Assembly: GCA_030432635.1 (NCBI GenBank)
Contig: JAUIMB010000008.1
Location: forward strand, 1 to 64,000
Length of the DNA: 64,000 bases
Direction: 5' to 3'
DNA from: Bacteroidia bacterium
GTDB taxonomy: Bacteria > Bacteroidota > Bacteroidia > Flavobacteriales > Flavobacteriaceae
Shown here piece after piece: positions 33,134-48,262 of the stretch. The notes under the pieces were generated by a model. That model did no database searches and was not told the origin of the DNA. It worked only from the letters and a program-made list of their open reading frames with translations. The translations under genes and the position numbers were made by a program. Within the stretch, counting starts at the first letter, position 1; each line of letters starts with the position of its first letter.

Positions 33134-35233
33134 CTAAATTAAAAGTTGATAAGCAATTAAGGCAACAATATAGGCAAAAGCACTCATGATCACCAATTGT
33201 AACATAGGCCATTTCCAACTGTTTGTTTCGCGTTTTACAATGGCTAAGGTGCTCATACATTGCATGGCAAAGGCATAAAACAACAATAAGGAAATTCCGC
33301 TGGCAAAATTGAATAAAGGTCCACCCAATATAGGGTTGACCTCGCCTGCCATTCTATTTTTAATGGTTTCTTCTTCATCACTGCCAACACTGTAAATCGT
33401 TGCCAAAGTTCCAACAAACACTTCACGAGCAGCAAAACTACTTACAATAGCAATTCCTATTTTCCAATCATAGCCTAGAGGTCTAATAGCAGGTTCAATG
33501 GCACGACCTGTGATACCAATAAAAGAATGCTCGAGTTTGTGAGAGGCTATTTTTTGCTGTAATTCTTCGGAAGATATATTTTCTGAAGCATATGAGGTAG
33601 TAACAATTTCTTCAGCATTGTTGAAATCATCACTTGGACCATAAGATGCCAAAAACCACAGCACAATTGATATGGCCAAAATAATCTTTCCCGCACCAAA
33701 CACAAAGGATTTTGTCTTTTCCAATACTGTCAAAGCCACATTTTTAACTAAGGGTAATTTGTAGTTTGGCATTTCGACCACAAAGAAAGATTTGCTTTTA
33801 ATTTTCAATACTTTATTTAGTATCCAAGCTGAAAAAATAGCAGTTCCAAATCCGATGAGGTAAAGCAGCATCAAGGTCAATGCCTGATAGCTAAGACCTA
33901 GAACACGACCTTGTGGAATGACTAAGGAAATAATAATCAAGTATACAGGTAATCGTGCCGAACAGGTTGTAAAAGGTGTGACTAAAATCGTAATAAGGCG
34001 TTCTTTCCAACTTTCAATATTGCGTGTTGCCATAATAGCTGGTATGGCACAAGCCGTCCCTGAAATTAAAGGCACCACGCTTTTTCCACTAAGCCCAAAA
34101 CGACGCATAATTCGATCCATCAAAAAGACCACTCGACTCATATAGCCGGATTCTTCAAGAATGGAAATGATTAAAAACAGAAAGGCAATTTGAGGAATGA
34201 AAATTACGATGCCACCTAGTCCAGGTATAATGCCTTCTGCGAGTAGATTAGTGAATGCGCCTTCAGGGAGTACATTTTTGGTCCATTCGCTCAATGAAGC
34301 AAATGTACTGTCAATAAAATCCATAGGAACTTCAGTCCAATCGTAAATGGCTTGAAAGAGGACTAACAAAATCGCAAAAAAGATAAGGTAGCCCCAAACT
34401 TTATGGGTTAGGATACGATCGAGTTTGATTCGAAGGTCCTTGGCAGATTTTAAATCTATCGTTTGCCCTTTTTTTAGGGTGTCGTTGATAAATTGGTATC
34501 GCTTGATAGTCTCTTTTTGCTGTAATCGTTTTAGATCGGCCTTACTCTTGGTTTTAAAACTCTGCAGCGCATCCACTTCATTTCTGTCAATTTTTCCAAA
34601 GTTAACATCCTGTGTGATGACCAGCCAAAGTTTATACACCAGCTGATTTGGAAAGGCTTTTTTTAGCCTTGTGAAATACTCTGGGTCAATTTCCGAAGCA
34701 TTTAAACAAGGTGTCGTAGGCAGTTCTTTAAAATTCGCAATTAGTGTCTTGAGTTGGTCAATGCCTTTACCCTTTCGCGTACTTATCAAGGCGATTTTGG
34801 TTTGCAATTGTTCCTCTAAGTAAGGAATATCCAAGTGAATGCCTTTATAGGCCATACGATCAGACATGTTGATGACCAGGATTGTTGGAATTTGCAAATC
34901 CTTGATTTGGGTGTAGAGCAGTAAGTTTCGCTTCAGGTTTTCAACATCACTAACAACGACAGCGACATCAGGATAATCCTTGTCGTTTTTGTTGAGCAAT
35001 AACTCAATGACGACATTTTCATCCAAGGATGAAGCGTTCAAACTGTAGGTGCCAGGTAAATCGATGATATGAGCTTTGACACCTCTAGGTAATTTACAAA
35101 GCCCTTCTTTTTTCTCGACGGTTATGCCAGGATAATTCCCTACTTTTTGATTCAAGCCAGTAAGCGCATTGAACACGGAGGTTTTACCTGTGTTGGGATT
35201 TCCAATTAAAGCAACATTGATGTGTTTAGGCAT
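33134..35233 (-). CDS. feoB: Ferrous iron transport protein B
   Basis: 699 residues. GTP-driven Fe2+ uptake permease of the inner membrane. The N-terminal G domain shows G1 at 11-18 (GNPNTGKT), G3 (DLPGTYSL) and G4 (NMSD). A helical spacer and two Gate-type membrane halves follow (for example ESGYMSRVVFLMD and the paired SGTACAIPAIMATR and FAAREVFVGTLATIYSVG). Its start overlaps the feoA stop by 8 bp. Confidence 0.96.
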   Translation of the reverse strand: MPKHINVALIGNPNTGKTSVFNALTGLNQKVGNYPGITVEKKEGLCKLPRGVKAHIIDLPGTYSLNASSLDENVVIELLLNKNDKDYPDVAVVVSDVENLKRNLLLYTQIKDLQIPTILVINMSDRMAYKGIHLDIPYLEEQLQTKIALISTRKGKGIDQLKTLIANFKELPTTPCLNASEIDPEYFTRLKKAFPNQLVYKLWLVITQDVNFGKIDRNEVDALQSFKTKSKADLKRLQQKETIKRYQFINDTLKKGQTIDLKSAKDLRIKLDRILTHKVWGYLIFFAILLVLFQAIYDWTEVPMDFIDSTFASLSEWTKNVLPEGAFTNLLAEGIIPGLGGIVIFIPQIAFLFLIISILEESGYMSRVVFLMDRIMRRFGLSGKSVVPLISGTACAIPAIMATRNIESWKERLITILVTPFTTCSARLPVYLIIISLVIPQGRVLGLSYQALTLMLLYLIGFGTAIFSAWILNKVLKIKSKSFFVVEMPNYKLPLVKNVALTVLEKTKSFVFGAGKIILAISIVLWFLASYGPSDDFNNAEEIVTTSYASENISSEELQQKIASHKLEHSFIGITGRAIEPAIRPLGYDWKIGIAIVSSFAAREVFVGTLATIYSVGSDEEETIKNRMAGEVNPILGGPLFNFASGISLLLFYAFAMQCMSTLAIVKRETNSWKWPMLQLVIMSAFAYIVALIAYQLLI

Positions 35234-35459
35234 TGGAAATCGTTATTAAAATGTGGATGGCAGTTTCTTTTCTGATGGCCAAATGGGTACCGTTAATATT
35301 GAGATATAACGGATCGGCAAATGGTGCGACTTGTAAAAGCTCGACTTGATTTCCTGGTAAACAACCCATCTCGAGTAGTTTTAGTGGAATATGAATCGAA
35401 GACACATCAGTAATGATACCTTGTTGTCCTCGTTTTATATCTGCTAATGTGATTTGCAA
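35226..35459 (-). CDS. feoA: Ferrous iron transport protein A
   Basis: 77 residues, an SH3-like FeoA domain (LLEMGCLPGNQVELLQVAPFADPLYLNINGTHLAIR). Modulates FeoB. First gene of the feoA-feoB-Cys-peptide unit. A TATTTTTG -7 box (35486-35493, reverse strand) and a weak inverted repeat near 35464-35480 precede it. Confidence 0.93.
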   Translation of the reverse strand: MQITLADIKRGQQGIITDVSSIHIPLKLLEMGCLPGNQVELLQVAPFADPLYLNINGTHLAIRKETAIHILITISNA

Positions 35460-35485
35460 GCTTATTTAGATTGATTTTAAGTAAG

Positions 35486-35493
35486 CAAAAATA
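35486..35493 (-). promoter_or_regulatory. Possible -7 promoter element of feoAB
   Basis: Reverse-strand TATTTTTG fits TAnnTTTG. No clear -33 TTG is seen at the right distance, so this is a candidate only. Confidence 0.35.
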
Positions 35494-35531
35494 AGCTAAA
35501 TTTTTAATGCTGAAAAATAGTAGCCCAGAAA

Positions 35532-36200
35532 CTATTGGTATTCTAGCTTCAATCGTTGGATGTCTAGTATTAAGGAGTCTACAGAAGCAGGACTAACACC
35601 ATTGTATATTCCTCTGATTTGTTTCTTTTTATCGATAAGGGCAAAATTTTCGGTGTGTACCATACCATAATCTTCTGAGTTGTCATCCTTGACGACGAGA
35701 TAAGATTTTCTTGCCAAATCATAGATTTGTTTTCGATCTCCTGTGACTAAGTTCCATTTTTTGTCGTTAACACCTTTTTCGACAGCATAACGTTTCAACT
35801 GAGCTACCGAATCAATTTCCGGAGTTACAGAATGTGATAACAACAGGACTTCATCATCATTTATAATCGCCTTTTGAACACGAAGCATCTGATTGGTCAT
35901 AATCGGACAAATCGTTTGGCAAGTGGTAAAAAAGAAATCTGCCACATATATCTTATCCTTGTAATCATTTTGCGTAATGGTATCTCCATTTTGATTGATA
36001 AGCTTGAATTCACCTATAGTATGGTATTTCTTTTTATGCTGAATACTACTGTCTACAAGAGCGGCATCAATTCTGTTAGGTTGGTAGATAGGAAGTGGTT
36101 TTTTTGTATCTAATGCCGAGTACATCAAGTAGATTATAATGCCAGATACAATGGCAAAGACCAAAAAAAAGATCTTAAGTTGTTTAAAATATCGCAACAT
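35532..36200 (-). CDS. SCO family protein (SCO1/SenC/PrrC)
   Basis: 222 residues from ATG 36200; an upstream ATG would precede the membrane anchor with 14 unlikely residues. One N-terminal transmembrane helix (about 9-27) anchors a thioredoxin-fold domain facing the periplasm. The copper motif C94-x3-C98 (TTCQTICP) and distal H182 (MVHTENF) are conserved. Members deliver copper to the CuA site of cytochrome c oxidase or act as redox proteins. Confidence 0.92.
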   Translation of the reverse strand: MLRYFKQLKIFFLVFAIVSGIIIYLMYSALDTKKPLPIYQPNRIDAALVDSSIQHKKKYHTIGEFKLINQNGDTITQNDYKDKIYVADFFFTTCQTICPIMTNQMLRVQKAIINDDEVLLLSHSVTPEIDSVAQLKRYAVEKGVNDKKWNLVTGDRKQIYDLARKSYLVVKDDNSEDYGMVHTENFALIDKKKQIRGIYNGVSPASVDSLILDIQRLKLEYQ

Positions 36201-36313
36201 GAGCTTATCCTGAAGGGTTTGAATGATAGGATTCGTGTGCAAAAATACGACACAATAGCAACAAAATGACTACATTTGGTAGGCTATATTTGAAAAAAGA
36301 AAAACCTTTTACC

Positions 36314-38251
36314 ATGAAATTATCCTTACTAATGGTTCTTGGGCTATTTTGTTCAACCACATTTGCTCAAGATTTTAACGACACTTTAGATAGAATTCGA
36401 GAAGCTGAAGCCAAATCTGCACTCAACCAGATCATGCAGCGTGCAAATTTAAACACAGGAAATTACGATTTAAAATACCATCGTATGGAATTGGATGTCG
36501 ACCCATCGGTTGCCTTTATAGCTGGAGCGGTAACATCTTATTTTGAAGCGAAGAGCAATATGAATACCATTACATTTGATTTAGCTTCGAATATGGTCGT
36601 TTCCGAGGTAATGCAAAGAGGGAATTTATTATCCTATACGCAGAACGATGACGATGAGTTAGTAGTATCCCTTCCAGAGACTTTAATTACAGGAACACTT
36701 GATTCACTGACTGTGAGTTATTCTGGCAATCCCGTGAGCTCAGGTTTTGGATCTTTTGAACAAACAACGCACAATGGAGCTCCTGTTATTTGGACGCTGT
36801 CTGAGCCTTATGGTGCAAAAGCGTGGTGGCCATGCAAGCAGGATTTGATTGATAAAATCGATTCTGTCGATGTTTATATGACCACTCCTCGATTTAATGC
36901 CTCAAATGAAGACTATGTTGCGGTTTCCAATGGTGTAGAACAAAGCCAGATTATTGATGGGAATAACAAAACCACACATTTTAAACATCGCCACCCAATA
37001 CCTGCCTATCTCATTGCCATTGCAGCAACCAACTATGAAGTGTATTCGCATACGGTTCCCAACAATGGAAATCCTTTTGAGATTGTGAATTATGTGTATC
37101 CAGAAAACCTCGATTTTGCACAGGTTAGTACACCTGTGACCGTAGATATTATGAACCTTTTCTCCAATTTGTTTGAGGAATATCCTTTTGCAAATGAGAA
37201 ATATGGTCATGCCCAGTTTGGTTGGGGAGGCGGAATGGAACACACCACAGTGTCATTTATGGGGAATTTTAGCCGAAACTTGATTGCCCATGAATTGGCC
37301 CATCAATGGTTTGGTAATAAAATTACCTGTGGAAGCTGGAAAGATATATGGTTAAATGAAGGCTTTGCCACCTATCTTTCTGGCTTGGTTTATGAACATC
37401 TAGATGGAAATGATGTCTTTACTGTTTGGAAGCAACAACGAACCGATGTTATAACTTCTGCGCCTGATGGTGCTGTGTATCTGAGTGATGCAGATACGAC
37501 TAGTGTGAATCGGATTTTTAATGGACGATTGAGTTACAGAAAAGGAGCAATGGTGTTGCACATGCTACGAAAAAAGCTAGGTGATGCAAGCTTCTATCAA
37601 GCTTTACAAAACTATTTGCTTGATGAAGACCATGCTTTCGATTATGCTAAAACGGAAGATTTTATTGGGATTGTTGAAGCTTCAACTGGTCAAGATTTAA
37701 CCGAGTTTTTTGATGATTGGTTGTATAATGAAGGCTATCCTAGTTATTCGGTTAATTGGAACCAGCCTTCAGAAAACCAAATCTCAATTACTTTGGAGCA
37801 AACGCAAAGCCATCCTTCGGTTTCCTTTTTTGAAGCACCAGTACCCTTGAGATTGATTGGAACCCTTGGTGAAACCATGGATGTTGTTCTGGATCATACC
37901 AATAATGGACAAAACTTTATGGAACCCGTAAACTTTAGCGTTCAAGAGGTGGTATTTGATCCTGAAGCCGATTTGATTTCGAGAGATAATACTGTGACAC
38001 TCAGTACAAATGAATTTAGTTTTGACGAAGAATTCTTAATGTATCCAAACCCAACAACAACGATGCTTTATTTCAAAAAACCTGATGGGATGGAAGTATC
38101 TGAAATTAGAATATACAATGCGCTTGGTCAATTATTGTTAAGTCAACCTTGGAGCGAATCTTTAGATACCTCAACCTGGTCTTCAGGACTGTGGTTCATA
38201 CAATGCTCTACCAATGAAGGTGTGATTACTAAATCGCTGTTAAAAAAATAG
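36314..38251 (+). CDS. T9SS-secreted M1-family aminopeptidase
   Basis: 645 residues from ATG 36314, which begins a good signal peptide (ends TTFAQ). The gluzincin site is complete: H326-E-x-x-H330 (HELAHQW) and E349 (NEGFAT), with the substrate-binding GGMEH corresponding to GAMEN. The final ~75 residues are a T9SS sorting domain (from MYPNPTT to ITKSLLKK). Predicted extracellular or surface aminopeptidase. Confidence 0.94.
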   Translation: MKLSLLMVLGLFCSTTFAQDFNDTLDRIREAEAKSALNQIMQRANLNTGNYDLKYHRMELDVDPSVAFIAGAVTSYFEAKSNMNTITFDLASNMVVSEVMQRGNLLSYTQNDDDELVVSLPETLITGTLDSLTVSYSGNPVSSGFGSFEQTTHNGAPVIWTLSEPYGAKAWWPCKQDLIDKIDSVDVYMTTPRFNASNEDYVAVSNGVEQSQIIDGNNKTTHFKHRHPIPAYLIAIAATNYEVYSHTVPNNGNPFEIVNYVYPENLDFAQVSTPVTVDIMNLFSNLFEEYPFANEKYGHAQFGWGGGMEHTTVSFMGNFSRNLIAHELAHQWFGNKITCGSWKDIWLNEGFATYLSGLVYEHLDGNDVFTVWKQQRTDVITSAPDGAVYLSDADTTSVNRIFNGRLSYRKGAMVLHMLRKKLGDASFYQALQNYLLDEDHAFDYAKTEDFIGIVEASTGQDLTEFFDDWLYNEGYPSYSVNWNQPSENQISITLEQTQSHPSVSFFEAPVPLRLIGTLGETMDVVLDHTNNGQNFMEPVNFSVQEVVFDPEADLISRDNTVTLSTNEFSFDEEFLMYPNPTTTMLYFKKPDGMEVSEIRIYNALGQLLLSQPWSESLDTSTWSSGLWFIQCSTNEGVITKSLLKK

Positions 38252-38328
38252 GCTAAAAGAACATTAAAGTTTTCTAAATACTTCTAAAACACTACTTTTG
38301 TCGCTCAATTTTTTATGATATACGATAC

Positions 38329-39675
38329 ATGGAGTTTGTAATAAAAATATCCCAATTCTTATTAAGCTTATCATTACTAATCGTCTTGCACGAATTAGGT
38401 CATTTTATACCAGCAAAACTATTTAAAACGAAAGTCGAAAAGTTCTATTTGTTTTTTGACGTTAAATATTCCCTGTTCAAGAAGAAAATAGGTGAGACCG
38501 TTTATGGTATTGGTTGGTTGCCTCTTGGAGGTTATGTTAAGATTGCTGGAATGATTGACGAAAGTATGGATAAAGAGCAAATGGCCCAACCACCTCAACC
38601 ATGGGAGTTTCGATCTAAACCAGCGTGGCAAAGATTAATCATTATGTTGGGTGGTGTCACTGTGAATTTTATTTTGGCATGGTTGATTTACGTATTCATG
38701 TCTGGATATTATGGAGATACTACAATTGCAACGAACAGTGTCAAGGATGGGTATTTTATTGACAATTCCGCTTTGTTGGAAACTGGGTTGCAAACGGGTG
38801 ACCATATTATTTCGGTCAATGGGAATACGTATGATAACTTAACGGATTTAACATACAGTTTTCTAACGGCCCAAGAGGTTGTGATTAGTCGTAACGGCAA
38901 AGAAATGACCCTCGATTTTCCTGAAGATTTTCCAGGACGGCTTTCTGATTCCCGTAAGGAAGATGGTCCATTGTTAAAGTTAAGAACACCTTTTTACGTT
39001 GGTGAAGTTATAGATACATTACATAATAGTAACTCAGATATTAAAAAAGGTGATATTATTGTTGGTATCAATGACCAAGAGTTGAAATACTTTGATGAAT
39101 ATGGATCTGTTCTAAAATCATATAAGAATACTACTGTTGCAGCGAAAATCGTACGAGATGGTAATACCATTGATGTCCCTTTGAAAGTTGATGATAAAGG
39201 GACTTTAGGAATTATAAGAGGAGGAACCATCAATAAGTTTGAAGAATTAGGCTATTTGGATATCACTAGGAAAGAATACTCTTTTGCTCAAAGTTTTGGA
39301 GCTGGAACAGACAAGTTTATCAAAGAGTTTAAAAAATATGGAGAACAACTCAAATTAATTTTCACGCCTAGTACTGGAGCATATAAAGGTGTTGGTGGGT
39401 TTAAGGCAATTTTCGATATATTTTCAGACACTTGGGTTTGGGAAAGCTTTTGGAGAATAACAGCATTTTTGTCAATAATGCTTGGCGTACTGAACCTGCT
39501 TCCTATTCCTGCTTTAGATGGAGGACACGTCATGTTCCTGCTGTATGAAATGGTTTCTGGACGTAAGCCAAGCGAGAAGTTTTTGGAACATGCTCAATTG
39601 GTTGGATTTATTATTTTAATCGTTCTAGTGCTCTTTGCCAATGGCAATGATATTTTTAAAGCGTTCTCAAGTTAA
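38329..39675 (+). CDS. rseP: Site-2 zinc metalloprotease RseP
   Basis: 448 residues. Intramembrane protease that cleaves anti-sigma factors and signal-peptide remnants. Catalytic H21-E-x-x-H25 (LHELGHF) in the first membrane helix, two PDZ-like regions (about 125-290), and the second zinc-site helix NLLPIPALDGGHVMF near the C-terminus. A TACTTTTG -7 candidate lies at 38293-38300. Confidence 0.95.
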   Translation: MEFVIKISQFLLSLSLLIVLHELGHFIPAKLFKTKVEKFYLFFDVKYSLFKKKIGETVYGIGWLPLGGYVKIAGMIDESMDKEQMAQPPQPWEFRSKPAWQRLIIMLGGVTVNFILAWLIYVFMSGYYGDTTIATNSVKDGYFIDNSALLETGLQTGDHIISVNGNTYDNLTDLTYSFLTAQEVVISRNGKEMTLDFPEDFPGRLSDSRKEDGPLLKLRTPFYVGEVIDTLHNSNSDIKKGDIIVGINDQELKYFDEYGSVLKSYKNTTVAAKIVRDGNTIDVPLKVDDKGTLGIIRGGTINKFEELGYLDITRKEYSFAQSFGAGTDKFIKEFKKYGEQLKLIFTPSTGAYKGVGGFKAIFDIFSDTWVWESFWRITAFLSIMLGVLNLLPIPALDGGHVMFLLYEMVSGRKPSEKFLEHAQLVGFIILIVLVLFANGNDIFKAFSS

Positions 39676-39715
39676 ATATCTTAGGAAAAAATTACTTTAA
39701 AATTTATTGGCACGT

Positions 39716-39746
39716 TTTGCATAAATTAAAAAATAACATATATTTG
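39716..39746 (+). promoter_or_regulatory. Promoter of tRNA-Asn
   Basis: TTTG (39716-39719), 19 bp, TATATTTG (39739-39746): an exact match to the Bacteroidota sigma-ABfr consensus, about 25 bp before the tRNA. Confidence 0.75.
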
Positions 39747-39771
39747 CGCTCGCAAAAGTGAAGAATAACAC

Positions 39772-39845
39772 TCCTCAGTAGCTCAGTTGGTTAGAGCATC
39801 TGACTGTTAATCAGAGGGTCACTGGTTCGAGCCCAGTCTGAGGAG
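39772..39845 (+). tRNA. tRNA-Asn (anticodon GTT)
   Basis: 74 nt. Acceptor stem TCCTCAG / CTGAGGA with discriminator G, D-arm GCTC..GAGC, anticodon stem TCTGA / TCAGA with loop CTGTTAA, and T-loop TTCGAGC. CCA is not encoded. A perfect hairpin follows it. Its 3' part and that hairpin are repeated at 42688. Confidence 0.95.
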
Positions 39846-39883
39846 CAAAACGACAAAGCCCATTCAAAATTGAATGGGCTTTG
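39826..39883 (+). repeat. Left direct repeat: 3' end of tRNA-Asn plus terminator hairpin (att-like)
   Basis: 58 bp that match 42688-42745 at 54 positions; the first 28 bp are identical. It covers the T-loop, 3' acceptor strand and the following hairpin. A repeat of a tRNA 3' end is the classical mark of tyrosine-integrase integration. Confidence 0.85.
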
Positions 39884-39885
39884 TC
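39852..39885 (+). terminator. Hairpin after tRNA-Asn
   Basis: 16-bp perfect stem (GACAAAGCCCATTCAA and its complement) with a 2-nt loop. The T-tract is weak after the stem. Confidence 0.7.
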
Positions 39886-39947
39886 ACTTAGAAAACAAAT
39901 GAGAGAAATCTTTATTTGCAACAGTCGATAAATTCAATGTTTCAGTA

Positions 39948-39977
39948 CAAAAAAACCCGATACGAAAATATCGGGTT
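39948..39977 (-). terminator. Terminator of the beta-helix gene
   Basis: On the reverse strand, stem AACCCGATA / TATCGGGTT with loop TTTTCG and a T-tract, about 60 bp after the gene's stop. Confidence 0.8.
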
Positions 39978-40035
39978 ATGTTTTACAATATTTTTATTAT
40001 TGCCGTATGACGAGGCCATACGTTTTAAATATTAA

Positions 40036-42525
40036 TTAGTCTTTGATAATCAATGTTTTTTTGAAAACACTCTGGTCATTTGATATACTAACTATATACA
40101 CACCTACGTTTAATCTGGAAGTATCTATGTAGTCTTTCTTAGCATCTATGTGAGATTTAATGAGTACATTATTAGATAAATCCCGTATTTCTACTTTAAA
40201 GTCTCCTATTTGATCCGTATCAAACCCTACGTGCAGCCTATTTTTATTGGGATTAGGATAAATAAACACCTCTGGTTGTAACTGTTTAGAACCTTCAGTT
40301 CCTTGAAAAATTAATTTCCATTGTTGTCTTTCTAAATCTTCCCAAGGTGAAGTATTCACATCGGTTTGACCATCTTGTTCAGTATCATCTGTTTTTTGAA
40401 TTGAATTATGATCCCACCATTTATTACGAATTCTATATATTTTTTCGCCATTGTTTTCTCCAACAACAATAAGTTCCCATTCCTCACTTCCAGGAATAGA
40501 ACCCGATAATAACATTAGGTCAAGATCATTACCTATTTCTATTGGTTGAGAAGGTACGTCATCTACAAATCTTTGACCAGTTATGTAATTTTGAGATCCT
40601 TTATGTCTTATTCGATAGCTATCATTTCCAGTATAGCTAATTACCCAATTAGTTCTCCAAGTTGCGCAAACAATTTCATCTTGTTGGTTTTTGCTTAAAT
40701 ATCTAGGACTACCACTTGAACCAACAGCTTCTATATTTTGAATTTGATAGATGCCGTCTTTGACACCATCAATATTAGTAACTGGATCAAAAGGTTTATC
40801 ATTTGTAGGTAAATTATTAAAAGTGACATCATAAACGTCATTACCTATAATGAAACCACCATCATAATTATCATCATCATAAGTGGTACTTGTACTCGGA
40901 TAATCACTTACATCCTCTATGAGTTGACCATCAATAACTAAATTATTGAAATGGACACCATTGACATATCTCCCTTGTTCAAGACCAGTAATTAAAGCTT
41001 GAGTATTATTTGATGTAGCATCAAATGTTACCCCATCAAATACAATATTATTAATGCGATAGCCAGGAGCAAGAGTTATACTAGCAGCATCTGTGGGTTC
41101 AACTTTTAAGCGTAATAAAGCCCCATTACTAATATCTTCAATACGAATATTTTTGAAAGTTATATTTTGACAATAGTTGAGGTCACCACAATTAATTGCG
41201 ATAGCACCTTGGTAGGCTTCTAAATATTCGTCATGTTGTAAAATATCAATTTGGTCAAAAATGACATCCTCTATATGGCCTTTACCTTCATCTGGTATAA
41301 CATTTTGGCCTGGTACTATGGACCCATGCCATCCAAAAGCAATGGGGTGACCTCTGTCGGAGTAAATAGACGTGTTTGTTACTTCAACATTTCGAACTCC
41401 ACCTTCATTCATATAAACTGCATTTTGATAATTTCTACCAGCATAGATAGCTATTGCATCCTCTGCAATTCTTAAAAAACAATCATCTACAAATACATTC
41501 TGAGAGGCTTCAATATATATCCCAGCTCCCCAAATCACTCTAGAAATTGCCTTCATACCTTTAATATGAATTTCATTGCTTTCTGTAATATTGACACAAT
41601 TATTTTGCATATCATTAATCACAATTCCTTTAATAGTTATGTTATTGGAATTTTTTATTCTAACCGCTCTGAGCCAGTCATAACCTTCAGGATAACCAAT
41701 AAAATCACCATTTTCATTTAGACAGGCAGGTGTGATATTACCATTACCATTGCAGAAATTTTTAGGCATTCCTTGATTATCAATAACACCACGACCAACT
41801 ATTTGAACATTATCCACGTGGTCTAAATAAATACCTCCTCTAAACACCTCATTACCATCAATATAAATAATTTCGTTGTCGACTGGGTAATACCAAACCT
41901 CACTTAGGTCAGAACTTTGGCCTCTTTTCTTTTCTAACCTTTCTGTCATGTCAGTAACAGATGTATAATTTGTCAAGGGAGCTATGATATTATATTTGCT
42001 CGAAAACAAATGCATATTTCTATTTCGATTTTTATTTATTTCTATCGATAAATTTCTAGGTTGATCCAACTGAAACCTGACTGTGTTTAGAACGCTATTT
42101 ATTACATATGGTATTTCTAGATTTTTTGGTCGAATATCTACTACATGTACGGGTTTATCTTCACTAATGCAATAATTGCATGTAATCTCTACTTCAATAG
42201 CTCCTCCAGAAAAGTCAAAATTAACAAATGAGGACTTACTGTAGTCTGTACTATACCCATAGAAGCCCACATCTCCTGGGCCTATACCTTGAGGATTATT
42301 ATTGTTAATACCTTCATCATTAACCCATGTCAAATACTCAAACAATTCTATCCAGTCAGAAGATCCATCTGCAGGTCTTACCCTAACAGAAAAATCATCA
42401 TATGAGTCAGCGTAATTAGGGACTCCATTGGGTTCATAAGGAACAATTGTTACTTGAGCAAATAGCTCGAGACTAAAACTTAATAATACTAGTAGAAACG
42501 CAAGTTTGAAATGATTAATTTTCAT
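40036..42525 (-). CDS. T9SS-secreted right-handed beta-helix protein, probable glycoside hydrolase
   Basis: 829 residues. Signal peptide 1-24 (ends LELFAQ). An N-terminal beta-sandwich (about 25-170, with LDQPRNLSIEINK) precedes a parallel beta-helix (about 215-570) bearing stacked repeats such as NSNNITIKGIVI and SQNVFVDDCFLRIAEDAIAI. The acidic DD / EDAIAI pattern recalls GH28/GH49-type enzymes, but the family is not certain. A region rich in aromatic residues (about 590-750) resembles a RICIN-like beta-trefoil, and a T9SS sorting domain ends the chain. Likely binds and cuts an extracellular polysaccharide. It is the only gene between the two tRNA-Asn-derived repeats, so it may be a mobile cargo gene. 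Confidence 0.85.
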   Translation of the reverse strand: MKINHFKLAFLLVLLSFSLELFAQVTIVPYEPNGVPNYADSYDDFSVRVRPADGSSDWIELFEYLTWVNDEGINNNNPQGIGPGDVGFYGYSTDYSKSSFVNFDFSGGAIEVEITCNYCISEDKPVHVVDIRPKNLEIPYVINSVLNTVRFQLDQPRNLSIEINKNRNRNMHLFSSKYNIIAPLTNYTSVTDMTERLEKKRGQSSDLSEVWYYPVDNEIIYIDGNEVFRGGIYLDHVDNVQIVGRGVIDNQGMPKNFCNGNGNITPACLNENGDFIGYPEGYDWLRAVRIKNSNNITIKGIVINDMQNNCVNITESNEIHIKGMKAISRVIWGAGIYIEASQNVFVDDCFLRIAEDAIAIYAGRNYQNAVYMNEGGVRNVEVTNTSIYSDRGHPIAFGWHGSIVPGQNVIPDEGKGHIEDVIFDQIDILQHDEYLEAYQGAIAINCGDLNYCQNITFKNIRIEDISNGALLRLKVEPTDAASITLAPGYRINNIVFDGVTFDATSNNTQALITGLEQGRYVNGVHFNNLVIDGQLIEDVSDYPSTSTTYDDDNYDGGFIIGNDVYDVTFNNLPTNDKPFDPVTNIDGVKDGIYQIQNIEAVGSSGSPRYLSKNQQDEIVCATWRTNWVISYTGNDSYRIRHKGSQNYITGQRFVDDVPSQPIEIGNDLDLMLLSGSIPGSEEWELIVVGENNGEKIYRIRNKWWDHNSIQKTDDTEQDGQTDVNTSPWEDLERQQWKLIFQGTEGSKQLQPEVFIYPNPNKNRLHVGFDTDQIGDFKVEIRDLSNNVLIKSHIDAKKDYIDTSRLNVGVYIVSISNDQSVFKKTLIIKD

Positions 42526-42687
42526 ATAGAAAGGATTTAAAATGTAATTATAGTAAATATACTCTTTTTTTAATGAATTGATATTGGTGACATTAATGAG
42601 AGATTAGGTTCAATCTTTATATAAGTGACAAATTATATGACGATTACCCATTCTGAAAATCGTCTCAATGAAATCTTCCGAGATAGA

Positions 42688-42745
42688 TTCGAGCCCAGTC
42701 TGAGGAGCAAAACGAAAAAGCCCATTCAATTTTGAATGGGCTTTT
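42688..42745 (+). repeat. Right direct repeat: tRNA-Asn 3' end copy (att-like)
   Basis: Matches 39826-39883 at 54 of 58 positions. Two differences, at the base of the hairpin, are compensatory (C-G in the left copy, A-T here), so the stem is kept. The sequence upstream of TTCGAGC is not tRNA-like, so there is no second tRNA. Confidence 0.85.
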
Positions 42746-42748
42746 TTA
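42715..42748. terminator. Bidirectional terminator hairpin
   Basis: 15-bp perfect stem AAAAAGCCCATTCAA / TTGAATGGGCTTTTT. It is usable on the reverse strand for the Fur-family gene (42764) and on the forward strand. Confidence 0.75.
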
Positions 42749-42763
42749 TATCCATTGACAACC

Positions 42764-43147
42764 TTATTTTGAGGTGCATCCTTCACAGGTGCCTTGAATT
42801 AAAATTTGAGAAGCCGTTATCTCTCGATTAGGGATTTTTGGAATAGTAACATCTACGGCAACACAATCAATTTTACCACAGGCCACACATTGAAAATGAG
42901 GATGTAGATCAACATGTTCCGATTTAGAACAGCCATCACATTTGGCATACCACTTAATTCCCTTGTCACCCATAAATGAATGTAAAACACCATCATCCTC
43001 CAACTTGTCCAATACTCTATACACAGTTGTTTTGTTAAATTTGGATTCAAGACGTTTTACTAACGTAATGGCCGAAATGGCATTGCTCCCATTTTTAAAC
43101 TCATTCAATAATGCACCTACAGATTCTGTTTTTCTAATAATTCCCAT
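42764..43147 (-). CDS. Fur-family transcriptional regulator (Zur-like)
   Basis: 127 residues from ATG 43147 (an in-frame TTG 36 bp upstream gives an unlikely extension). The winged helix (about 1-70, FNKTTVYRVLDKLEDDGVL) and C-terminal metal-binding dimerisation domain show C87-x2-C90 (CVAC) and C121-x2-C124 (CEGC) structural zinc pairs, plus HVDLHPHF. The zinc sensor Zur is the most likely member given the adjacent folE remnant and MerC gene. It probably represses itself and the divergent merC unit through the operators between them. Confidence 0.9.
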   Translation of the reverse strand: MGIIRKTESVGALLNEFKNGSNAISAITLVKRLESKFNKTTVYRVLDKLEDDGVLHSFMGDKGIKWYAKCDGCSKSEHVDLHPHFQCVACGKIDCVAVDVTIPKIPNREITASQILIQGTCEGCTSK

Positions 43148-43152
43148 AAGCA

Positions 43153-43184
43153 CAAATTTATTACAACATAGTTGCAATAACAAA
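43153..43184 (-). promoter_or_regulatory. Promoter of the Fur-family gene
   Basis: Reverse strand TTTG (43181-43184), 20 bp, TAAATTTG (43153-43160). The predicted start of transcription falls within a few bases of the ATG, so a very short leader or leaderless mRNA is possible. Confidence 0.5.
43161..43177. promoter_or_regulatory. Predicted Fur/Zur operator 1
   Basis: TTACAAC-ATA-GTTGCAA, an inverted repeat with one mismatch. It overlaps the -33 element of the forward promoter and lies between the -33 and -7 elements of the reverse one. Confidence 0.6.
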
Positions 43185-43201
43185 TTAAAGATTTATATTT
43201 G
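43172..43201 (+). promoter_or_regulatory. Promoter of the merC-folE unit
   Basis: TTG (43172-43174), 19 bp, TATATTTG (43194-43201): an exact consensus fit. Both inverted repeats overlap it, so repression by steric block is expected. Confidence 0.65.
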
Positions 43202-43215
43202 CAACTTAGTTGCAT
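43199..43215. promoter_or_regulatory. Predicted Fur/Zur operator 2
   Basis: TTGCAAC-TTA-GTTGCAT, containing a perfect 7-1-7 palindrome TGCAACT-T-AGTTGCA. It overlaps the -7 box and predicted start site of the forward promoter and lies 38 bp (centre to centre) from operator 1. Confidence 0.65.
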
Positions 43216-43228
43216 TTATATTACAATT

Positions 43229-43630
43229 TTGAGACTTTTATTAAATAAACCAGATACTTTTGGTGCTTTTGCAAGCAGCTTATGCCTAGTGCATTGTCTT
43301 CTTACACCATTAATATTTGTTTCCCATAGTTGTTCAATAGGAGGTTGTGAGGCTGCGCCTTTTTGGTGGAAGAGCTTAGATGTCCTATTCTTGATTCTTG
43401 CGTTTATTGCAATTTATAATTCAGCCAAAAGCTCATCCAATTCTTATGTTAAAAATGGATTATGGATGGGCTGGGTAGCTCTATTGATGTTTATAGTGAA
43501 TGAGAACTTAGGCTTTATTGCCTTGCCAGCAATACTAATTCATGTTTCTTCTCTTTCTCTCGCAGGTTTGCACATATATAACATGAACTATTGTCAATGT
43601 AAAAACGATAACTGTTGTTTGAAAGAATGA
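43229..43630 (+). CDS. MerC-domain membrane protein
   Basis: About 133 residues. There is no ATG; the reading frame contains TTG at 43199 (inside the operator and upstream of the predicted transcription start) and at 43229, and the latter is chosen. Four membrane helices and the paired cysteines of the MerC fold are present (CLVHCLLTP, CSIGGCEAAPF). A Cys-rich tail (CQCKNDNCC) follows. In Bacteroidota such genes often sit in zinc- or copper-responsive loci rather than mercury operons, so import or binding of a divalent metal is suggested. Its stop overlaps the start of the folE remnant (ATGA). Confidence 0.75.
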   Translation: MRLLLNKPDTFGAFASSLCLVHCLLTPLIFVSHSCSIGGCEAAPFWWKSLDVLFLILAFIAIYNSAKSSSNSYVKNGLWMGWVALLMFIVNENLGFIALPAILIHVSSLSLAGLHIYNMNYCQCKNDNCCLKE

Positions 43631-43905
43631 ATACAAGTGATATAGAATTAATAGGCGACAATCGTATGTGCTCAGGTGTTGAGACTCCAATGCTCGACCA
43701 TGCAAATTTTGAAAGATTTTCAGGACGCTCTAGGCGTAGAAGATTTCATTATAATGATCTGTGCAAAACACTTATGTGTCTATTCGAGAGGGATTAAGGA
43801 TAAAACAACTTTACAACAACTATTGAGTATGGAGGTTGTTTTGAAGATGACAGTTATACGAACAAATTCATAAATATTGTCAATAACCAAAAATTAGATA
43901 AATAA
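43627..43905 (+). pseudogene. folE: GTP cyclohydrolase I (folE) remnant, deleted and frameshifted
   Basis: Starts at the ATGA overlap with merC. The first ~22 codons read as a FolE N-terminus (SDIELIGDNRMCSGVETPM). The sequence then jumps to the C-terminal part in another frame (MQILKDFQDALGVEDF, then CAKHLCVYSRGIKDKTT), so roughly the middle two thirds, including the zinc site and active-site histidines, is missing. A second shift of one base near 43812 separates KDKTT from the last part (TTTIEYGGCFEDDSYTNKF), ending TAA at 43905. The intact gene would be about 640-670 bp. The remnant cannot make an active enzyme. FolE is known in other bacteria as a zinc-dependent enzyme with Zur-controlled backups. 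Confidence 0.85.
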
Positions 43906-43966
43906 GCTATAAATTTGGGCTTGACTGGGAATAACGCAGTCAATAATCAAAACAAAATATATAATA

Positions 43967-46135
43967 ATGAATAAACAAACAACAATGAAAAGAATATACA
44001 TTACCATCTTTGCCTTTTTAATATCTTTTTCAACTGCCATTCATGCCAATGAAGGGATGTGGTTTTTGATGCACATCGAAAGGTTAATCGATCGTGATAT
44101 GCAAAAAATGGGACTACAACTTTCTGCAGAGGAAATTTACAGTATCAATAATCAAAGTCTAAAAGATGCTATTGTACAGTTTAATGGAGGTTGTACCGCA
44201 AGTATTATTTCAGGTAGCGGATTGGTGCTCACTAATCATCACTGTGGATACAATGCCATCGCAGAACTGTCCACTGCGGAACAAAATCACTTAAAAAACG
44301 GGTTTTGGGCAGGCTCCTTACAACAGGAACTAAAGCCAGAAAGCCTTTACGTTAGGTTTTTTGTGAGAATGGATGATGTCACCAAACGTATTTTAGCCCA
44401 AGTGAATGACGGCATGAACGAAAAAGAGCGTGAAGCCGCCATCAATAGGGAAATCTCCAAAATCGAACAAGAGAACAATGAAGGCGGTAAGTATACGGTT
44501 TCGGTGCGCTCATTCTTCCAAGGAAACGAATTCTACTATTTTGTTTATGAAGATTATACCGATGTGCGCTTGGTAGGAACACCTCCAGAAAGTGTTGGAA
44601 AGTATGGTGGTGATACCGATAACTGGGAATGGCCAAGACATACGGGAGATTTTTCGTTGTTTAGGGTCTATGGCGATAACGACGGAAATCCTGCTGAATA
44701 TTCTGAAAGCAATGTACCGTTAAAAGCAAAATACCACCTGCCGATTAATATTGATGGTGTTGAGGAAAATGACTTCGCAATGATTCTAGGTTATCCTGGT
44801 CGAACAAATCGCTGGATGCCTGCTGAAGGTATTGAGCAGAACGTCAATTACGCATATCCTGCTTGGGTTGAAGGTTCTAAATTGAGTATGGACGTGATGA
44901 AAAAATACATGGACCAAGACGAAAGCATTAATTTAATGTATGCCTCAAGTTATGCCAGAATTGCCAACTATTGGAAAAACCGTCAAGGGATGATCGATGC
45001 TTTGACAGAGCATAAAACAGCAGAAGCAAAGCGGAAAACTGAAGCCAAATTTCAAAAGTGGGCAAATCAAAAAGCAAATCAAGCCACTTATGGAAAAGTC
45101 ATTGAAAACATAAATAAGTATTACGCTTTAACCAATGAGAAGGCCAAACACAACAATTATCTTTTGGGTATGCTGCGTTCTAGTAAGTTTTCCATCCTGC
45201 CATACCGTCTTGGTAGAAATTTAGAACAATTTGTGGCAGCCAATGATGCCAAGCGCAAAGAAGTCTTGCCAAGAATTCAGGCACTCATTGATAATTCATA
45301 TAAAGAATACCATTTACCACTTGAAAAAGAGGTGTTGGTAAAGCAACTTGGTTTATATGCCTCCAAATCCAATTATCAGCTTCCTGAATTGGTGTCTGAA
45401 ATTGGTTCGAAAAACAACAATGACTTCACACAATATGTCGATGCCATATTTGAGCTTAGTATATTCGCTTCCAAAGCACGTATTGAAGCCTTTATAAAGT
45501 ATCCGAATCAAGCATTATTGGAAAATGATCCATTGTACCAGCTATCAACTCAATTGCTTAATAAATACCGTGAAACTCCAGAAAGTTTGGTGAAACCAGA
45601 AAATGACTTTGAGGCGTCTTATCGACTATTGGTTGCTGGTTTGCGTGAATCTGGTTTGAGTCAGGTAGAATATCCAGATGCTAATTCTACATTGCGATTA
45701 ACCTACGGAAAAGTGAGAGCTTTACCTGAAGACAAAAGGAATGATGCAGATGAGAATAATTATACAACCCTCAAAGGAATGATCGCCAAGTATAAGCCAA
45801 ATGATGATGAGTTTGACCTTCCAAAGGATATGTTAGAGGCCTTTAAGGAGAAAGATTATGGACGTTACGCCAATGATAAAGGGCAATTGCCAGTTAATTT
45901 CCTAACCGATAATGATATTACTGGCGGAAATTCTGGGTCTCCAGTTATCAACGGTAAAGGTGAATTGATTGGTTTGGCTTTTGATGGTAATATCGAGGCT
46001 ATGGCTGGTGATGTGATTTTCGATACTAAACTACAACGTACAATAAATGTGGATATTAGATACGTGCTTTGGCTGATAGATAAATATTCTAAGGCAAAGC
46101 ATATTGTAGATGAATTGACAATTGTTCCCAATTAA
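43967..46135 (+). CDS. S46 family dipeptidyl-peptidase, DPP7-like
   Basis: 722 residues. Signal peptide 1-27 (ends AIHA; a second ATG at 43985 would also keep it). Chymotrypsin-type triad: His in NHHCGY (91-92), Asp in YGGDTDNWEW, Ser656 in GGNSGSP. Position 674 is Gly (AFDGNIEAM), as in DPP7, which takes hydrophobic P1 residues, rather than the Arg of DPP11, which takes acidic ones. Acts in the periplasm, releasing dipeptides from the N-terminus of peptides produced by secreted proteases such as those at 1.3-10.6 kb. Confidence 0.93.
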   Translation: MNKQTTMKRIYITIFAFLISFSTAIHANEGMWFLMHIERLIDRDMQKMGLQLSAEEIYSINNQSLKDAIVQFNGGCTASIISGSGLVLTNHHCGYNAIAELSTAEQNHLKNGFWAGSLQQELKPESLYVRFFVRMDDVTKRILAQVNDGMNEKEREAAINREISKIEQENNEGGKYTVSVRSFFQGNEFYYFVYEDYTDVRLVGTPPESVGKYGGDTDNWEWPRHTGDFSLFRVYGDNDGNPAEYSESNVPLKAKYHLPINIDGVEENDFAMILGYPGRTNRWMPAEGIEQNVNYAYPAWVEGSKLSMDVMKKYMDQDESINLMYASSYARIANYWKNRQGMIDALTEHKTAEAKRKTEAKFQKWANQKANQATYGKVIENINKYYALTNEKAKHNNYLLGMLRSSKFSILPYRLGRNLEQFVAANDAKRKEVLPRIQALIDNSYKEYHLPLEKEVLVKQLGLYASKSNYQLPELVSEIGSKNNNDFTQYVDAIFELSIFASKARIEAFIKYPNQALLENDPLYQLSTQLLNKYRETPESLVKPENDFEASYRLLVAGLRESGLSQVEYPDANSTLRLTYGKVRALPEDKRNDADENNYTTLKGMIAKYKPNDDEFDLPKDMLEAFKEKDYGRYANDKGQLPVNFLTDNDITGGNSGSPVINGKGELIGLAFDGNIEAMAGDVIFDTKLQRTINVDIRYVLWLIDKYSKAKHIVDELTIVPN

Positions 46136-46162
46136 ATAATTCATGCTTAGTTTTTTTGGGAT

Positions 46163-46213
46163 AGACCTTTCTGGTAGTTTTTATGAAGATACTATAACAG
46201 AAAGGTCTTTTTT
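46163..46213 (+). terminator. Rho-independent terminator
   Basis: 11-bp stem AGACCTTTCTG / CAGAAAGGTCT around a long loop and followed by six T, downstream of the S46 peptidase. Confidence 0.8.
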
Positions 46214-46229
46214 CTGACATAAATCAGGA

Positions 46230-47303
46230 CTAAAACAATTTCATTTGACCTGTTTTATAGGTGTCATGTAAGCTGGTGTTGAGTTGAGGGTAGGTTTTTC
46301 CTTTATAGTATTTTAATCGTGCCAATTTCACCAAATCATTGATTTGTTTGGCTATTTCTCCTTCACCACGCATTCGTCTTCCATAGCGTGAATCGTTGAG
46401 GTTACCACCATGACAACTGGCAATTTGGTTGAGGACTTTTTCAGCGCGATCTGGCATTGTGGTTTTTATCCATTTGGAGAATATGTCACCTATGGCTCCA
46501 TTTAATCTTACAATGGTATGTGCCATACTTAAGGCTCCAGCTTCTGAAGTAGCTTTTGCCAAAGCCAAAATCTCATGACTATTTATGGCTGGAATTATTG
46601 GCGCTAGCATCACATTAACAGGAATTCCATTTGCACTCAAGGTTTTAATGGTTTCCAGTCGTTTCTTGATGCTTGCTGTTCGAGGTTCCAAAATGCGTCT
46701 CGTGCTTTCAGATAGTGAGGTGATTGACATGTTCACGGCAATTAGATGGTCTTTTGCCAGCGCTTTTAAAATATCGAGATCACGAAGTATTAAAGCGTTT
46801 TTTGTAATAATACCAACAGGATGCTTATACTTTAAAAATATTTGTAAACACTGCCTTGTGAGTTTAAACTGTCGTTCAGCAGGTTGGTAACAATCTGTAT
46901 TGCCTGACATCACAATGGTTGCGGCTTTCCATTGCTTTCGGGTGATGAATGCCTCTAGAAGTTTTGGAGCATCTTGCTTGACCAGAATACGACGTTCAAA
47001 ATCCAATCCTGCACTAAAGCCCCAAAATTCATGACTGTTTCTTGCATAACAATATACACAGCCATGTTCACAGCCTTGGTACATGTTCATTGAGTACATC
47101 ATTCCAACATCTGGACTGGTAACCGTATTGACTATGGTTTTTGGAAAAACAGATAGGTACTGTGTTTGGTTATTGTCAACAATTTCACCTTCAAGAGCGC
47201 AGTAGTTTAAAAAATCTTCACGTAATTCATGGCTAAGTTCAAAGAAACGGTTAGGTACATTGGCTTGAGCTCCTCTGCCTTTCAGATAATCTTGTTTTAA
47301 CAT
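46230..47303 (-). CDS. Radical SAM protein, PA0069 / Rv2578c type
   Basis: 357 residues. The 4Fe-4S ligands C-x3-C-x2-C are in GCEHGCVYCYARNSHEFWG, a form typical of the PA0069/SplB-related group. Conserved text such as VVMSGNTDCYQPAERQ also fits. The substrate is unknown; a DNA or RNA repair role has been suggested for relatives. Isolated gene after the convergent S46 terminator. Confidence 0.88.
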   Translation of the reverse strand: MLKQDYLKGRGAQANVPNRFFELSHELREDFLNYCALEGEIVDNNQTQYLSVFPKTIVNTVTSPDVGMMYSMNMYQGCEHGCVYCYARNSHEFWGFSAGLDFERRILVKQDAPKLLEAFITRKQWKAATIVMSGNTDCYQPAERQFKLTRQCLQIFLKYKHPVGIITKNALILRDLDILKALAKDHLIAVNMSITSLSESTRRILEPRTASIKKRLETIKTLSANGIPVNVMLAPIIPAINSHEILALAKATSEAGALSMAHTIVRLNGAIGDIFSKWIKTTMPDRAEKVLNQIASCHGGNLNDSRYGRRMRGEGEIAKQINDLVKLARLKYYKGKTYPQLNTSLHDTYKTGQMKLF

Positions 47304-47386
47304 ATTGCTGATTTTCTGTAAAAATACAAAAAATCAAACCAAGAAAGTCAATTAAAAAGTCGACTTACTAACAAATCGATAAGGTT

Positions 47387-48169
47387 TTAAGCTCCTGGAA
47401 AATCTGCTTTTCGCTTTTCTAAAAATGCTGAAGTCCCTTCTTTGAAATCTGCCGTTCCAAAGCATTTACCAAATTGTTTAATTTCGGTTTTATAGCCATC
47501 GACACCATCTTTAAAGTTTGAATTAACAGATTTAATTGCTGCTTTAATGGCCACAGATGAATTTCGCATGATCTTACTGGAAATTTTTTCAGCCAAAGGT
47601 AAAAGTTCATCCAATTCGGTAACATGATTTACCAAACCATAGTTTAAAGCCTGGTTTGCATCAATCATACCTGCAGTCATGATCATTTCCATGGCACGTC
47701 CTTTTCCAACGAGTTGCGGCAAGCGTTGTGTTCCGCCATAACCAGGAATAACACCGAGCGATACTTCAGGAAGTCCCATTTTGGCGTTGGTGCTTGCGAT
47801 TCGAAAATGGCAAGACATTGCCAATTCTAAACCACCACCTAAAGCAAAACCGTTAACGGCAGCAATGACTGGAGTACCAAGATTTTCAACAAAATCAAAT
47901 AAAAGCTCTTGTCCTTTCGCAGCTAATTTTTCACCTTCCTTGACATCAAAATCTGCAAATTCACTAATATCAGCACCTGCCACAAAGGCTTTTTCACCAT
48001 TTCCAGTGATAATAATGACTTTTACGTCACGGTCATTGTTGGCTGCATCAAGGGCGTCATGCAGTTCTTCAATGGTCTGCTTATTAAGGGCATTTAGTTT
48101 TTTTGATCTATTAATGGTAATCGTAGCGATGCCATTGGAGCTTTCAGAAAGAATATTGTCGTAATTCAT
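47387..48169 (-). CDS. Enoyl-CoA hydratase/isomerase family protein
   Basis: 260 residues, the crotonase family length. Oxyanion-hole motifs GADISEF and GFALGGGLELAMSC and the catalytic-site region GLPEVSLGVIPGYGGTQRL are present, with a glutamate in PEV. Probably hydrates a 2-enoyl-CoA in fatty acid breakdown; chain length is not readable. Confidence 0.92.
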   Translation of the reverse strand: MNYDNILSESSNGIATITINRSKKLNALNKQTIEELHDALDAANNDRDVKVIIITGNGEKAFVAGADISEFADFDVKEGEKLAAKGQELLFDFVENLGTPVIAAVNGFALGGGLELAMSCHFRIASTNAKMGLPEVSLGVIPGYGGTQRLPQLVGKGRAMEMIMTAGMIDANQALNYGLVNHVTELDELLPLAEKISSKIMRNSSVAIKAAIKSVNSNFKDGVDGYKTEIKQFGKCFGTADFKEGTSAFLEKRKADFPGA

Positions 48170-48262
48170 AGTGTGATTTTTGGTGTTTTGTTATCGGAAG
48201 GATTTAAGATCTTTTAGAGGTTGAGTCCATCGGATAAATTTCAGTTTAAGTGAAATCGTTCC

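Follow-up and report, generated by a model that had tools for sequence, protein, structure and literature searches.

How did the 3' end of a tRNA gene, together with its terminator, come to stand on both sides of a single beta-helix gene in a flavobacterial genome? The question arises at the tRNA-Asn locus of a Bacteroidia bacterium of the Flavobacteriaceae (GenBank assembly GCA_030432635.1), which we analyzed in a stretch of 64,000 nt (contig JAUIMB010000008.1, positions 1 to 64,000, forward strand; hereafter the window). We consider it probable that the segment 39883-42744 is a cargo-only cassette in the 3' end of tRNA-Asn, at a hot spot where genes are acquired by addition, and that the site-specific recombinase has been lost or acts in trans. 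The features are collected in Table 1.

The tRNA end and its terminator form a direct repeat of 57 nt with 95% identity. The two copies are spaced 2862 bp apart; their first 28 bases match exactly, 54 of the 57 agree overall, and the mismatches are confined to offsets 28, 42 and 43. A model given only the letters of this DNA and a list of its open reading frames (hereafter the sequence-only reading) had pointed out the 28 identical bases and the spacing, both of which we recovered; its count of 54 matches in 58 became 54 in 57 upon measurement. Each copy comprises the last 21 bases of tRNA-Asn, starting at the T-loop motif TTCGAG, plus the terminator. The left edge is sharp, with identity ending immediately upstream of the T-loop start. 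A 64-kb sequence of the same composition should contain about 1.7e-7 exact 28-mer pairs by chance, so a chance origin of the repeat was excluded. As in tRNA-targeted islands, the segment has an intact tRNA at one end and, at the other, a 3' fragment that is displaced but oriented the same way. This tRNA was the sole one called by ARAGORN in the window. The 44 other tRNA genes of the genome showed no partial copies when their end 22-mers were scanned with up to 3 mismatches over up to about 15 kb downstream (less at contig ends), a scan that shorter copies would escape.

A single open reading frame (ORF) of at least 80 amino acids (aa) lies between the repeats. Its product matches PF00295 (Glyco_hydro_28, E 1.4e-12, 47.8 bits against a cut-off of 22.9) and PF18962 (Por_Secre_tail, E 1.6e-10), in line with the earlier description of one beta-helix gene with a type IX secretion system (T9SS) signal. 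The suggestion that it encodes a polysaccharide-acting enzyme fared less well, the profile match standing and the activity being doubtful. The protein reads WGAG and AEDA where a homologue that is 33% identical (genome G372) reads WGDG and SDDA; we take the acidic positions of these two motifs to be catalytic in GH28. Because two acidic positions kept by this homologue are changed, the enzymatic role is uncertain. No Protein Data Bank (PDB) chain matched the protein by sequence at E≤1e-3. A hairpin with a T-run (AACCCGATA..TATCGGGTT) 3' of the gene is its probable terminator, judging by eye.

The cargo gene is atypical in composition. Its GC content at third codon positions (GC3), 0.214, is the minimum among the 39 window genes of at least 200 aa (next value, 0.272), and its overall GC is among the three lowest. 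The codon distance ranks 7th highest of the 39 and first among the 8 genes of at least 600 aa. The comparison with neighbours that the sequence-only reading had proposed thus supports an inserted cassette. The gene had no match in the other 22 genomes of the genus at E≤1e-60 (present in 1 of 23). At E≤1e-40 it was found in 2 of 397 family genomes; the second homologue is 35% identical, with no tRNA within the 18 kb around it. No cargo homologue adjoining a tRNA was found in the wider genome contig set, and the cargo had no plasmid match by DNA and no phage match by protein.

An integrase was not detected, as had been stated before. A model built from three related tyrosine integrases, which would miss other integrase kinds, found none in the window, and no recombinase was present among the 11 Pfam-scanned genes (33134-49717). 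The integrase gene that islands carry inside the element is thus missing from this one. An integrase or GIY-YIG remnant inside the cassette was considered and rejected, the best integrase-like tblastn matches being chance-like (33-36 aa, interrupted by stops, E 0.008-0.034).

We compared the site across the genus, which comprises 23 genomes, one per species. The tRNA-Asn region was examined in 21 besides the window's; G037 was left out, and the stretches of G013 and G018 stop early at contig ends. The SCO1 gene (cut by the stretch end), the M1 peptidase gene and rseP were kept upstream of tRNA-Asn in all 21 regions. In 6 of them, no ORF of at least 85 aa separates tRNA-Asn from a conserved downstream gene, which is the radical SAM gene in G009, G015 and G017 and the enoyl-CoA hydratase gene in G012, G016 and G018. 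The site can therefore be empty, which answers the question of an empty site raised by the sequence-only reading. The other 15 regions hold different genes behind tRNA-Asn; the radical SAM gene comes later in 4 (G001, G003, G006 and G021), and neither marker was reached in 11. Among the contents are a single ORF (G006), a pair of ORFs (G003), 14.5 kb of sequence (G001), genes that look like restriction-modification genes when read from the sequence (G021) and a serine recombinase immediately behind the tRNA (G010). Because the site is empty or differently filled across relatives, the tRNA-Asn interval qualifies as an additive hot spot, its addition closest to the tRNA being the cassette. Cargo varies at one conserved site, and additions are marked by tRNA 3'-end repeats, as in additive islands. 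Further tail copies occur in G004, G007, G008, G014 and G021; a 22-mer scan of the genus regions missed the shorter copies of G004, G007 and G014. Filling of the hot spot in the window genome probably took more than one event, since the FUR, MerC and S46 genes beyond the cassette (42764-46135) were not found at the site in the 21 regions. The closest S46 homologue (79%) lies in G009 on a different contig from its tRNA-Asn.

The same tRNA tail was searched for in 299 family genomes, and double matches were followed up among the matches listed. The intervals of G193, G294, G216, G259, G324, G044 and G277 were left out, as were genomes with tail matches on separate contigs or far apart; G190, G292 and G212 were partly covered. 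Tail copies were found in four settings, namely integrase islands, integrase-free segments, single GIY-YIG genes and gene-free inserts. They bound islands of 7-25 kb with tyrosine integrases, so larger, integrase-bearing islands of the sort that the sequence-only reading had suggested looking for do occur in the family. The matches listed include 11 fully covered segments of more than 1 kb whose end is a partial tRNA-Asn copy, and 7 of these hold a tyrosine integrase (G123, G213, G220, G245, G050, G225 and G188); the segments without an integrase match were those of the window, G134, G141 and G305. The repeats of G245 and G050 resemble the window's in beginning in the T-arm and extending through a matching terminator. 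These two islands (loci L178 and L179-L180) share with the window a T-arm-to-terminator repeat at tRNA-Asn behind rseP, but they are 19-25 kb long with an integrase adjoining the tRNA, and the window cassette has neither. The copy begins at or before the anticodon arm in G123, G213, G220 and G225, but not in G188.

The closest parallel is found in another genus (G134, locus L317). There, tRNA-Asn is followed by one gene of 285 aa without a Pfam match and then by a tail copy with the same T-loop start base and a repeated terminator (59 exact bases). Beyond this copy, another single gene is followed by a complete tRNA-Asn that shares the terminator stem. The G141 segment holds several genes in 6.6 kb, its copies 1 and 3 agreeing over 110 nt with three mismatches, and the G305 segment spans 12.6 kb. 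The sequence-only reading had offered a small cassette or the remnant of a larger island; the two are not separable here, and the one-gene segment of L317 with its same junction favours the cassette. Its broader claim of an insertion at an att-type (attachment) site in the tRNA was upheld by the absence of the gene in the genus, the empty sites, the atypical composition and the integrase islands of the family.

Other observations concern the same tail. A fixed exact edge was considered as the mark of a separate class and dropped: tail copies with the exact window edge and a non-G base before it occurred in 4 of 397 family genomes, of which G113 is a chance match inside a coding frame, unlike a tRNA tail, and G188 is an integrase island with unlike terminators. 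Phages bearing the tail and terminator were also sought; 143 phage records matched the query and none covered 80% of it, the ten matches listed covering 52-57%, all within the tRNA part. Two species of one genus (L318 1601-5786 and L319 2188-5915) have cytochrome-bd-like genes and a variable gene enclosed by tRNA-Asn genes that are complete and whose terminators match (gene names read from the sequence).

If the segment moved as a unit into the tRNA gene, the incoming DNA would have brought its own T-loop-to-terminator stretch. This stretch would now complete tRNA-Asn and terminate its transcript, and the native stretch would have been displaced 2862 bp downstream. Because of the T-loop junction and the precedents, site-specific recombination by a tyrosine recombinase, since lost or supplied in trans, is the likeliest mechanism. 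The window's genome holds tyrosine integrases, one of which (L217 14580-15839, contig 14) adjoins tRNA-Ser(gga); no link between these integrases and the tRNA-Asn site was found. No partial tRNA copy was detected alongside the L217 integrase. On one short contig (L159 10058-11362; G000 contig 33, 41 kb), 13 tRNA genes of many types are tightly packed and could be the tRNA array of a mobile element.

Several points weigh against a recombinase-inserted cassette. First, neither a recombinase nor a recognisable recombinase remnant was found inside the segment. Second, none of the 21 other genus regions had a tyrosine integrase match; besides the serine recombinase of G010, other kinds were not searched. 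Third, filled and empty sites were compared between species, with one genome each, not between strain pairs of the same species. In addition, the terminators on the two sides are unlike in 5 of the 7 integrase islands (G123, G213, G220, G225 and G188). Finally, the shared edge rests on the window and G134, plus G141, which lies outside the reach of the exact-edge pattern.

The hairpins bear on which copy is native. The tRNA-Asn of G014 is identical to the window's (among the matches listed), and G014 has two tails, with a short insert that has a different terminator and, after it, a tail and a CCCATTCAA...TGAATGGG hairpin like the window's. Because G014 carries this terminator behind its own distal tail, the hairpin is older than the cassette in the lineage. 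The distal copy in the window is likely the original, as suggested by its T-run, which matches that of G014; the incoming copy would therefore have its source within the same lineage or have arisen in place. The change of a C-G pair to A-T on both sides of the stem, which the sequence-only reading took as proof of selection on the terminator, is real. That argument is weak, because a single paired change is involved and the loop is altered as well. The 20-nt hairpin cores CCCATTCAAAATTGAATGGG and CCCATTCAATTTTGAATGGG (within 39855-39882 and 42717-42744) are exact reverse complements, and a flip of the hairpin centre would explain the loops as well as separate changes would. An 11-bp inverted repeat lies close to the cassette ends (39880-39890 and 42622-42632).

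Inserts without a gene were also found behind tRNA-Asn, measuring 102-154 bp from tail to tail (G004, G007, G008, G014, G141, L185, L186 and L326). A terminator of the form AATCC(A/G)GTC...GGATT and parts of the body are common to G008, G141, L185 and L186, and the body common to four inserts ends in GGTCCGG before TTCGAG. Those of several genera measure 141-154 bp (L050 3958-4200, L173 1279-1454, L185, L186 and L326). In L046 (G004), L049 (G007) and L056 (G014), a different short insert, carrying AGAAGTTTATCCC or a variant, lies between the tRNA-Asn terminator and the tail copy. A known RNA family was considered for these inserts and rejected, as Rfam yielded tRNA and tmRNA only in nine loci, including L185, L186 and the G008 locus. 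Between species, such short inserts seem to exchange one tRNA-Asn terminator for another.

The strongest rival, to which we give a clearly smaller chance, is the repair of a double-strand break by homing. A GIY-YIG endonuclease would cut near the T-arm of the tRNA, and repair from a filled allele would copy in the intervening DNA; the window cassette would then be either a passenger or a former unit that had its nuclease gene replaced. Small GIY-YIG ORFs do lie between copies of the same tail and terminator stretch, at tRNA-Asn in G021, G180, G147 and G055, at tRNA-Arg in G010 and G008, and at the transfer-messenger RNA (tmRNA) gene in G008 and G003 (L063 14943-15917, L181 640-1250, L184, L330, L130, L140, L082 and L083). 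These units are tandem in L063, L130 and L140. Their aligned proteins are 74-94 aa long, and the units measure 359-401 bp from tail to tail at tRNA genes and 643-702 bp at tmRNA. Those seen contain the nuclease gene alone and none carries other cargo, which counts against a homing origin of the window cassette.

A search of wider genome contigs with an alignment of the tRNA-Asn and tRNA-Arg units gave 62 loci, 59 of which have record titles that name Bacteroidota lineages. A tRNA lies within 600 bp in 53 of the 62, a rate that is biased because the query was built from tRNA-linked members; in a PF01541 search of the genus, 20 of 23 loci had no RNA gene within about 1.5 kb, and 14 of 20 further stretches had none. 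Among the 48 loci with an upstream tRNA on the same strand, 37 start 40-75 bp behind it (tRNA-Asn, -Phe, -Val, -Ala, -Arg, -Met or -Gly). Within 500 bp beyond the ORF, at least 13 nt of the tRNA tail were repeated in 30 of the 48 and at least 16 nt of the 70 bases behind the tRNA in 21, with both repeats in 15; mismatched loci gave 0 and 2 of 1338 pairs, respectively. The tail control is weak because the tRNA types of the paired loci are not the same. Some of the 30 tail copies are parts of further complete tRNAs, 2 of the 21 are tRNA-like pieces, and in 6 of the 48 loci, with at most 53 nt behind the ORF, a repeat could not show. In L131 2944-3335 and L132 2395-2769, GIY-YIG genes stand upstream of tRNA-Met and tRNA-Arg(tcg), and the 5' part of the tRNA is duplicated instead.

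The units and the window cassette both duplicate the tail and terminator of an RNA gene around one ORF. However, the ORF of the units is a GIY-YIG protein, often in tandem, and no GIY-YIG ORF or remnant was found between the window repeats. The unit alignment matched 46 of 149 family genomes at E≤1e-12 and had no match in the window's genome at that threshold, where the two small GIY-YIG ORFs are on contig 5, away from RNA genes. For homing by this enzyme family there is a precedent in phages: the available text on SegB describes it as a GIY-YIG homing enzyme of the tRNA region of T-even phages that drives tandem amplification (PMC13096335). The accessible portions of the open-licence literature gave no account of bacterial GIY-YIG units of this kind, SegB coming closest. 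GIY-YIG genes tied to tRNA tails are directly testable candidate homing elements of bacterial chromosomes. A wider proposal would make the tRNA tail and terminator an exchange unit throughout the Bacteroidota, in which T-arm cutting by GIY-YIG enzymes lets anything from inserts of about 100 bp to single-gene cassettes home in trans into empty alleles and renews the terminator each time; we regard this as rather unlikely.

It is similarly doubtful that the distal copy is a decayed tandem tRNA, that is, a second complete tRNA-Asn beyond the gene that lost its 5' part. Two complete tRNA-Asn genes flank other genes in G286 and G058 (4.1 and 3.7 kb), G273 (8.1 kb) and G039 (9.6 kb), and several genera have closely spaced tandem pairs. 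However, no tRNA-like sequence precedes TTCGAG at 42688, identity stops at the T-loop, and a second tRNA-Asn was found in none of the 21 other genus regions. The same edge in G134 would require two independent deletions ending at the same base. A replacement island, with cargo swapped whole by homologous recombination between conserved flanks and the second tail left over from older short insertions, is least likely of all: gene-free inserts do leave like copies in G004, G007, G008 and G014, genes behind tRNA-Asn vary by species and the 21 regions yielded no tyrosine integrase, but the beta-helix gene with two short flanks and an atypical composition fills the interval between the copies exactly.

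Table 1. Features of the tRNA-Asn locus in the window, with positions, strands and the basis or remark for each.
Feature	Position	Strand	Basis or remark
RseP-type M50 protease	38329..39675	+	PF02163 2.1e-51; precedes tRNA-Asn in all 21 other genus regions
tRNA-Asn(gtt), intact (rebuilt) target gene	39772..39846	+	ARAGORN
Proximal repeat copy, T-loop of tRNA-Asn to end of terminator stem	39826..39882	+	
Proximal terminator hairpin, perfect stem, weak T-run	39852..39885	+	predicted -25.6 kcal/mol with flanks
Hairpin AACCCGATA..TATCGGGTT with T-run, 3' of the beta-helix gene	39954..39977	-	read by eye
Cargo gene, GH28-like beta-helix protein with T9SS C-terminal sorting domain, 829 aa	40036..42525	-	
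Distal repeat copy, displaced tRNA-Asn 3' end and terminator, probably the native one	42688..42744	+	
Distal terminator hairpin with T6 run	42714..42749	+	predicted -20.8 kcal/mol with flanks
FUR-family regulator	42764..43183	-	PF01475; not found in 21 other genus tRNA-Asn regions
MerC-family protein	43199..43630	+	PF03203; not found in 21 other genus tRNA-Asn regions
S46 peptidase	43967..46135	+	PF10459; not found in 21 other genus tRNA-Asn regions
Radical SAM gene	46230..47303	-	PF04055; marks the conserved downstream border of the hot spot in some genus members
Enoyl-CoA hydratase gene	47387..48169	-	PF00378; marks the conserved downstream border of the hot spot in some genus members

Taken as a recombinase-inserted cassette, the segment is a compact addition to a known class of tRNA-anchored additions. 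On this reading, an addition at a tRNA site can be as small as a single gene that brings a copy of the tail and terminator but no enzyme. Were such cassettes mobile in trans, flavobacterial tRNA hot spots would gain genes without a complete island. The fragments of tRNA genes that integration leaves behind are treated in general terms in the available part of one source (PMC9897764). Tycheposons are described in the accessible text as elements of 4-200 kb with a tRNA at the border and a tyrosine recombinase (PMC10872708); the cassette, at 2.86 kb and with no recombinase found, falls outside that description. According to the same partial source, fGI-2 of the Methylophilaceae, at tRNA-Lys, resembles the window locus in being a tRNA-anchored hot spot with tRNA-end repeats and variable cargo. 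Its repeats are 20 bp, whereas those of the window are 57 nt with the terminator and bound one cassette, at another tRNA and in another phylum. The 10K genomic island of Riemerella anatipestifer, as far as the available text goes, has a 53-bp att sequence in an Arg-tRNA gene, and both integration and excision are reported (PMC6764341). The printed letters of this att sequence end in a hairpin and a T-run, so the repeat seems to include the terminator, and that portion of the report demonstrates that a 53-bp tRNA site of this form can serve a flavobacterial tyrosine integrase. On the details given there, the island and the window cassette share a flavobacterial tRNA site, a repeat ending in a terminator-like hairpin and a copy at each end; the Riemerella island spans 10 kb with 12 ORFs and its own tyrosine integrase, whereas the window cassette has one gene and no integrase.

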